A DNA stretch of 35,424 nucleotides, taken from the NCBI GenBank assembly GCA_016868975.1, contig VGFD01000004.1:1-35424 (forward strand). Direction: 5' to 3'. This stretch comes from Armatimonadota bacterium (lineage in GTDB: Bacteria; Vulcanimicrobiota; Xenobia; RGZZ01). The first letter of the stretch is position 1. Every line of letters starts with the position of its first letter. Below are positions 2,758-5,301 of this stretch, one piece after another. A program made the position numbers and the translations under genes. Under the pieces are notes generated by a model, which made no database searches, was not told where the DNA came from, and saw only the letters and a list, made by a program, of their open reading frames with translations.

Positions 2758-3915
<1,158 letters not shown>

Positions 3916-3941
3916 GAAAGACCCCTTTCCCACGAATCCGC

Positions 3942-3962
3942 TGTGGATAACACTGTGGATAA
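3942..3962 (-). promoter_or_regulatory. Pair of DnaA boxes upstream of ftsZ
   Basis: Two perfect DnaA boxes, TTATCCACA on the minus strand, at 3942-3950 and 3954-3962, in direct orientation with a 3-bp spacer (12 bp start to start). They sit 27-47 bp upstream of the ftsZ ATG in the 105-bp ftsA-ftsZ gap. DnaA is known to act as a transcription factor at such boxes. With only two boxes and no dnaA/dnaN neighbours, regulation of ftsZ is more likely than an origin. A possible -10 (TATTAT) lies just upstream. Confidence 0.7.
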
Positions 3963-4020
3963 ATCATCCCGATAATACGCATTCGGCGGCGTGCACTGTT
4001 TTGGTGCCGCCGCCGCCGCG

Positions 4021-5301
4021 CTAGAAAACATATTCTTTCAGCCAGGTAATGAAGCCCTGGAGGGCCTTGTTGACCGAGGAACTTCGCGCCACCGGAGTCT
4101 TTCCCTTCAGCACGCCAAGCCCGTAAATCAACAGTCCGACGCTGGCAGAATAGGCCGGATTGCGCAGGTGCGAGGGCAGCCCGCGCACGCTCTCCGGACG
4201 GGCAATGCGCACCGGATATCCGAGCGCCTGCTCGGCCGCCCAGGCCACGCCTTTCATCTCGGCGACGCCGCCGGTGAGCACGATGCTGGCCGGGCGGGTG
4301 CCCATTTTTCCGAGCCGGTCAAAGGACACGCGCAGCCACTCGAAGACGTCCATCAAGCGCAGGTCGATAATTTCCGACAACTCGGACACCTTCACCGGCT
4401 GCGGCTGCACCGAGGAGAGCGAGGTCACCTCGATCTCGCGCTCCATGTCGGCGGCTTCCACCTCTTCGCCCGCCGCCCGCCGCGCCGCCATTTCCTGCTT
4501 GAACGAAAGCCCTTCCTGAATGACCAGACGCTCGGCCTCCTGCAGTGGGACTCGCAATGCGGTGGCCACGTCATACGTCACCAGGGTGCCGCCCACGCAG
4601 AGCACGTCGGTGTGCCGCAGGTGGCCTTCCTTGAACACCGCCAGATCGGTGGTGCCCCCGCCGATGTCCACGAGCGCCACGCCGAGATCTTTTTCCTCGT
4701 CTTGCAAGACGCCGAGACTGGTGGCCACGCCGCTCACCACCAGCCCGGAATTCTCCTCCGGCTCCAACTCGGCCATCTCCATGCAATTCTGCAGGTTCTG
4801 CAACGGGCTTACCGAGCCGGTGATGATGTGCGCGTCCACCATGAGCTGCATTGCGGACAGGCCCACCGGATTCTTGATGCCGCTCACCTCATTGACCGTG
4901 AATCCCTTGGGGATGACGTGCAGCATGCGCCGCCCGTCAGGCACGCCCACCATGCGCGCATTCTCGATCACGCGCTGCACGTCGTGCTCGTTGATGACCC
5001 GGTTGTTGGCTCCGATGGCCACCGAGCCGCGGCTGGAATCCCCGCCCAGAAAGTCCCCAGACAGATTCACGAAGCAGCGGCTCACGCTCACCCCGGCCTG
5101 CCCTTCCGCCTCGCCCACCGCCGAGCGGATGGCCTGGGTGACTTCGTCCACATCGACCACGACGCCGCGCCGCATCCCGCCATTGGGGGAGACGCCCATG
5201 CCGATGATCTCCAGATCGCCCCGCGCGCTGGCGTCCGCGATGATGCAGCAGATCTTGGTGGCGCCGACGTCCACGGCGGTGACTCGCTGTTTTCTGGCCA
5301 T
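4021..5301 (-). CDS. ftsA: Cell division protein FtsA
   Basis: 426-residue actin-like ATPase that tethers FtsZ to the membrane and recruits late division proteins. The N-terminal VTAVDVGATKICCIIAD is the phosphate-1 loop; VALVDIGGGTTDLAVF is phosphate-2; VLTGGVAEMKGV is the adenosine motif. The 1C (SHS2) domain lies between about residues 85 and 160. The C-terminus, GFITWLKEYVF, is an amphipathic helix suited to membrane targeting. The ATG at 5301 has GAGAGG upstream. It follows sbp after a 168-bp gap, which is AT-richer than its surroundings and may hold a promoter, and precedes ftsZ. Its FtsZ partner peptide appears frameshifted in this sequence. Confidence 0.96.
   Translation of the reverse strand: MARKQRVTAVDVGATKICCIIADASARGDLEIIGMGVSPNGGMRRGVVVDVDEVTQAIRSAVGEAEGQAGVSVSRCFVNLSGDFLGGDSSRGSVAIGANNRVINEHDVQRVIENARMVGVPDGRRMLHVIPKGFTVNEVSGIKNPVGLSAMQLMVDAHIITGSVSPLQNLQNCMEMAELEPEENSGLVVSGVATSLGVLQDEEKDLGVALVDIGGGTTDLAVFKEGHLRHTDVLCVGGTLVTYDVATALRVPLQEAERLVIQEGLSFKQEMAARRAAGEEVEAADMEREIEVTSLSSVQPQPVKVSELSEIIDLRLMDVFEWLRVSFDRLGKMGTRPASIVLTGGVAEMKGVAWAAEQALGYPVRIARPESVRGLPSHLRNPAYSASVGLLIYGLGVLKGKTPVARSSSVNKALQGFITWLKEYVF

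Follow-up and report, generated by a model that had tools for sequence, protein, structure and literature searches.

Two perfect DnaA boxes in the short gap between ftsA and ftsZ raise the question of whether a division gene is here under the direct control of the protein that initiates replication. The boxes lie in a window of 35,424 bp, the whole of one contig (C4) of assembly G000 (6.1 Mb in 956 contigs, 93% complete, with 8.4% contamination), and it is from this 956-contig assembly alone that the organism, an uncultured bacterium, is known. They form a direct repeat, TTATCCACA-gtg-TTATCCACA, 27-47 bp upstream of the ftsZ ATG, with starts 12 bp apart and both members on the minus strand, as are ftsA and ftsZ; the full pair reads TTATCCACAgtgTTATCCACA (3962-3942), and the two are the only exact copies of TTATCCACA in the window. 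The original prediction, which described two exact sites in direct repeat at this spacing and at this distance from ftsZ, was correct in every detail. We think it probable that the pair is a double DnaA box at which two DnaA molecules bind cooperatively and control ftsZ transcription, as one of about ten tandem sites, and that the start of replication and cell division are probably wired together in this genome.

The features of the locus, and of the other box sites considered below, are collected in Table 1. Directly downstream of ftsZ is nrdR, and then deoB. The reading frame of ftsZ shifts shortly before the conserved C-terminal tail (2828-2900 of the window, minus strand), where both family relatives are in frame; the shift is either genuine or stems from a small error in the assembly.

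Table 1. Features of the ftsZ locus (positions in the window) and of other DnaA box sites and DnaA-like genes (assembly G000 unless stated).
Feature	Location	Strand	Remarks
DnaA box 1 (distal to ftsZ)	3954..3962	-	TTATCCACA, perfect consensus
DnaA box 2 (proximal to ftsZ)	3942..3950	-	TTATCCACA, direct repeat of box 1, 3-bp spacer
ftsA-ftsZ intergenic gap	3916..4020	-	105 bp, from sequence; holds the pair
TATTAT, possible -10 element	3972..3977	-	inferred; 9 bp upstream of box 1, without a good -35
AAAGGGG, likely ftsZ ribosome-binding site	3922..3928	-	AAAGGGGTCT common to both family relatives
ftsZ	2828..3915	-	TIGR00065; ATG at 3915-3913; change of frame near 2890, ahead of the conserved C-terminal tail
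ftsA, upstream gene	4021..5301	-	TIGR01174; stop at 4021
uvrA			tandem pair, spacer 4 bp
second ftsZ	C13; gene at L175:3902-5263		tandem pair, spacer 2 bp; its partner box TTTTCAACA has two mismatches and was picked up by the degenerate tandem-pair pattern
parE-like gene, then probable parC/gyrA-like gene			tandem pair, spacer 2 bp
rplI-dnaB			tandem pair, spacer 2 bp; directly after a hairpin and T-run resembling an intrinsic terminator (by eye)
DUF503/ylxP-lapA-recJ			tandem pair, spacer 2 bp, plus inverted box
dnaA upstream region			several boxes including a tandem pair
dnaA2, divergent from formate-tetrahydrofolate ligase gene			inverted pair
gene without clear replication role	C57		pair, spacer 1 bp
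between convergent genes	C84		pair, spacer 1 bp
between convergent genes	C51, C5		boxes
rplI-dnaB boxes, three family genomes	L177:4072-4091, L194:2708-2731, L203:1753-1761		
extra DnaA-like genes	L180:767-2317, L175:12049-13224 (G000); L199, L157 (G002)		
inverted boxes upstream of dnaA/dnaA2	L182:782-1018, L193:3988-4257, L180:2318-2351, L153:3156-3189		exactly 25 bp apart

Could so close a pair have arisen by chance? Shuffled versions of the window held a mean of 0.01 matches to TTATCCACA, and no shuffle held two. Across the genome there are 31 copies, against 10 of the reversed word that served as a control and ~12 single boxes expected at 65% GC, and 25 of the 31 lie outside genes predicted with a simple codon-composition gene caller, as opposed to 2 of the 10 control sites. 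At the same GC content, 5e-5 exact tandem pairs with spacers of 1-4 bp would be expected genome-wide and ~7e-10 inside the ftsA-ftsZ gap; no second copy of the exact pair with a 3-bp spacer at ftsZ exists in the 6.1 Mb genome. In the surroundings of the 31 sites, a same-strand partner with at most one mismatch was found at a start distance of 10-13 bp in 12 of 248 positions (4.8%; these correspond to nine loci because some pairs are counted from both members) and at 61-400 bp in 5 of 21,080 (0.024%), so that the tandem arrangement is ~200 times commoner than the local background; only one inverted partner was found at 10-13 bp. A degenerate tandem-pair pattern gave 10 matches in G000 and none for the control, compared with 2 and 2 in G002 and 0 and 0 in G001, the two other genomes of the family. 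A chance origin is ruled out by the genome counts, the tandem enrichment and the control motif, and the earlier expectation that two adjacent perfect 9-mers would be unlikely by chance is borne out both by the genome-wide expectation and by the enrichment of tandem partners.

The predicted targets of the tandem sites are a coherent set of replication, division and repair genes. The identities of uvrA, the second ftsZ, rplI-dnaB, the second dnaA and recJ were confirmed by family models, and for the parE-like gene the best model is parE, with a score of 706 bits that is below the cut-off of 723. The second ftsZ is complete (TIGR00065, 400 bits), adjoins a ClpS-like gene and has a tandem pair of its own. 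If all are read in the same way, the ~10 sites would put ftsZ, the second ftsZ, rplI-dnaB, parE, uvrA, recJ and the initiator genes under DnaA. Replication, division or repair genes own 8 of the ~22 box clusters, a tally that was made after seeing the genes and is indicative only; some of the boxes are found between convergent genes, or ahead of genes with no link to replication, so a regulatory role need not be assumed for all of them. Apart from the boxes themselves, the 150-bp flanks of 12 sites share almost nothing; the sites are therefore not copies of one element, and a dispersed repeat or promoter cassette that carries the boxes is ruled out. Nor are tRNA genes the targets of the orphan clusters, as none was found near the boxes. 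Clusters of at least three boxes between convergent genes were seen at L173:4815-4933, L184:3924-4458 and L178:4189-4259, and it is possible that these are sites of DnaA titration or recycling.

In other bacteria, DnaA is known to control ftsZ, dnaB and uvr genes, according to the work summarized in PMC8203912, and two of the better-described systems invite direct comparison. In the E. coli ChIP-seq results drawn on here (PMC11317965), DnaA prefers direct box pairs 2 or 3 bp apart and needs both boxes, and binding is lost when one base pair is added to the spacer. The double boxes described there (at nrdA, purH, DARS1/uvrB, rpoH and others) resemble those reported here in being direct repeats spaced by 2-3 bp before replication, repair or nucleotide genes. 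The pair at ftsZ, with two perfect copies of TTATCCACA in direct repeat and a spacing of 3 bp, fits the E. coli pattern, and the pairs at the second ftsZ, parE, rplI-dnaB and ylxP-recJ have spacings of 2 bp, whereas those at uvrA (4 bp) and on contigs C57 and C84 (1 bp) fall outside the 2-3 bp optimum. The present system differs in that both ftsZ boxes are perfect and in its targets (two ftsZ genes, dnaB, parE and uvrA); the sections of PMC11317965 used for this comparison do not name ftsZ among the regions bound by DnaA in E. coli.

At ftsZ itself, a parallel is offered by Caulobacter crescentus, where a DnaA-responsive ftsZ promoter contains two DnaA boxes (PMC3193534), where DnaA activates ftsZ (Hottes 2005, as cited in PMC8203912) and where dnaB also belongs to the DnaA regulon, as outlined in the same sources. 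Here, too, DnaA boxes are found in the ftsZ promoter region, in intergenic DNA, but the phylum is a different one, and the boxes, a perfect tandem that lies over the likely promoter or start site, are not conserved within the family. The main caution for DnaA control of ftsZ comes from E. coli, where the DnaA boxes of the division gene cluster that lie upstream of ftsZ have no action on it (Smith 1996, as cited in PMC8203912). Those boxes, as described there, are located further upstream within the coding sequence of ftsQA, whereas the pair here is intergenic, tandem and adjoins ftsZ.

We infer both that DnaA binds the ftsZ pair and that binding affects transcription, and the position of the boxes suggests how it might do so. 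A promoter scan found no convincing promoter on the minus strand, nor a clear sigma-70 promoter there from which the sign of regulation could be read. The TATTAT at 3977-3972, were it to serve as a -10 element, would put the boxes over the transcript start, and, failing that, any transcript with a short leader would still have a core promoter that overlaps them. Since the boxes sit where the ftsZ promoter or transcript start is expected, repression is the simplest model: DnaA bound to the pair before initiation would block RNA polymerase and keep ftsZ repressed, and the drop in active DnaA after origin firing would then release it. Such a roadblock of RNA polymerase by DnaA is among the E. coli results described in PMC11317965. 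We slightly favor repression over the promoter or start site, with low confidence; activation, as in Caulobacter, is possible by analogy.

Any such circuit would need a reader for the boxes, and it is the DHTT motif of DnaA that reads the DnaA box. Three DnaA homologues were seen in each of G000 and G002: one is canonical, one has KDYSS or RDYST and one is without domain I and the motif. In G000, the main protein, DnaA1, is broken by a contig end into an N-terminal part on C237 and a C-terminal part on C558. The C-terminal part can be aligned with the DnaA structure of B. subtilis (8btg) and with E. coli domain IV (1j1v), and its domain IV keeps DHTT. DnaA2 has KDYSS in the DHTT position, and DnaA3, whose gene shares a contig with the second ftsZ, is without both domain I and the DHTT motif. 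Because DnaA1 keeps DHTT and the other two have lost it, DnaA1 is the best candidate reader of TTATCCACA.

The reach of this arrangement among relatives appears narrow. The FtsZ proteins of the two other family genomes, G001 and G002, which are both of other genera, show 87% and 82% identity, and no box was found in the ftsA-ftsZ gap of either, even when one mismatch was allowed; the gaps of the three genomes can be aligned by eye around the ribosome-binding site only. The pair upstream of ftsZ was likewise absent from all other relatives examined, the uvrA pair was not found in G002 (G001 had no uvrA match) and the parE pair was found in neither G001 nor G002. A family-wide conserved ftsZ operator is therefore ruled out by the missing pair in G001 and G002. 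By contrast, a perfect box before rplI-dnaB is present in three of three family genomes, the only box that all three share, and in none of the 27 other genomes examined, suggesting that DnaA is linked to its helicase specifically in this family. G002, which is rated 100% complete, has 7 boxes, of which three are at dnaA, two are inverted before rplI-dnaB and two are elsewhere. A strict tandem search of 149 genomes of the phylum returned four pairs in G000, two in one genome (at a single inverted locus) and one each in two others, which rules out that tandem pairs characterize the class or the phylum.

From the strict search, and from a family in which the ftsZ pair is otherwise missing, the tandem regulon appears to be a recent, lineage-specific expansion in the lineage of G000, atop an older link to dnaA and dnaB. 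Tentatively, one lineage, of what is probably the phylum Vulcanimicrobiota and could be the class Candidatus Xenobia, may recently have built a tandem-box regulon over both ftsZ genes, dnaB, parE, uvrA, recJ and two dnaA genes, with neighboring genera almost without such boxes beyond dnaA and dnaB. The suggestion that ftsZ is tied to the initiator thus stands in part: it gains from the tandem pairs that precede replication, division and repair genes across the genome, the second ftsZ among them, and from a DnaA with an intact motif, but the comparison of ftsZ upstream regions in the closest available relatives, which are of other genera, went partly against it. With the pair absent there, the link between ftsZ and DnaA, if real, is recent and specific to the lineage.

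Since convergent genes (C5, C51 and C84) also have box clusters between them, at places where promoter control is unlikely, it might be asked whether DnaA binds the ftsZ pair only to be held or recycled there, in the manner of datA or DARS, with no meaningful effect on ftsZ. The irrelevance to ftsZ of the E. coli boxes upstream of it would be in keeping with such a role, as would the lack of conservation of the pair. We nevertheless consider it unlikely given that the pair occupies a short gap at the position of a promoter, that the second ftsZ comes with an independent tandem pair of its own, and that replication, division and repair genes are strongly over-represented among the targets.

Control by DnaA could also be exerted by a paralogue, such that DnaA2 or DnaA3 is the main reader of the pair and acts as a dedicated transcription factor apart from the initiator. 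Two extra DnaA-like genes are indeed present in both G000 and G002, and the dnaA2 promoter has boxes of its own, but with the canonical motif kept in DnaA1 and lost from both paralogues, and with the same paralogues accompanied by so few boxes in G002, this seems quite improbable. That the pair is a product of chance or a neutral leftover of drift, used by no protein, is hardly credible: its absence from ftsZ in other genera would agree with this, but the expected numbers of exact tandem pairs, both for the gap and for the genome, together with the ~200-fold enrichment, argue strongly to the contrary. We therefore continue to prefer a double box through which DnaA controls ftsZ.

To our knowledge, direct DnaA control of ftsZ is well supported in Caulobacter only. 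While such control is in itself already known, what appears to be new here, from the sequences compared, is the gene set, the probable phylum, the pairing of boxes at two ftsZ genes and the narrow distribution. These observations bear on the coupling of replication initiation to cell division in bacteria, and double boxes at ftsZ, the second ftsZ, dnaB, parE and uvrA in a distant phylum suggest that wiring of this kind can arise repeatedly. If true, this would be a natural example of the emergence of a replication-division circuit inside one family, and as near relatives are without the pairs, the same promoters can be compared with and without them.

Boxes of the TTATCCACA type are also found upstream of dnaA in G000, G002 and several relatives in the phylum. 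An inverted box pair 25 bp apart lies upstream of dnaA in G000, G002, G026 and G033 and upstream of dnaA2 in G000 and G002, and it may represent a conserved architecture of the dnaA promoter or of the origin. Two HNH-type genes, which have no clear role in replication, are preceded by similarly arranged DnaA-like boxes, which are inverted and 29 bp apart (L187:3540-3598 and L192:1481-1540).
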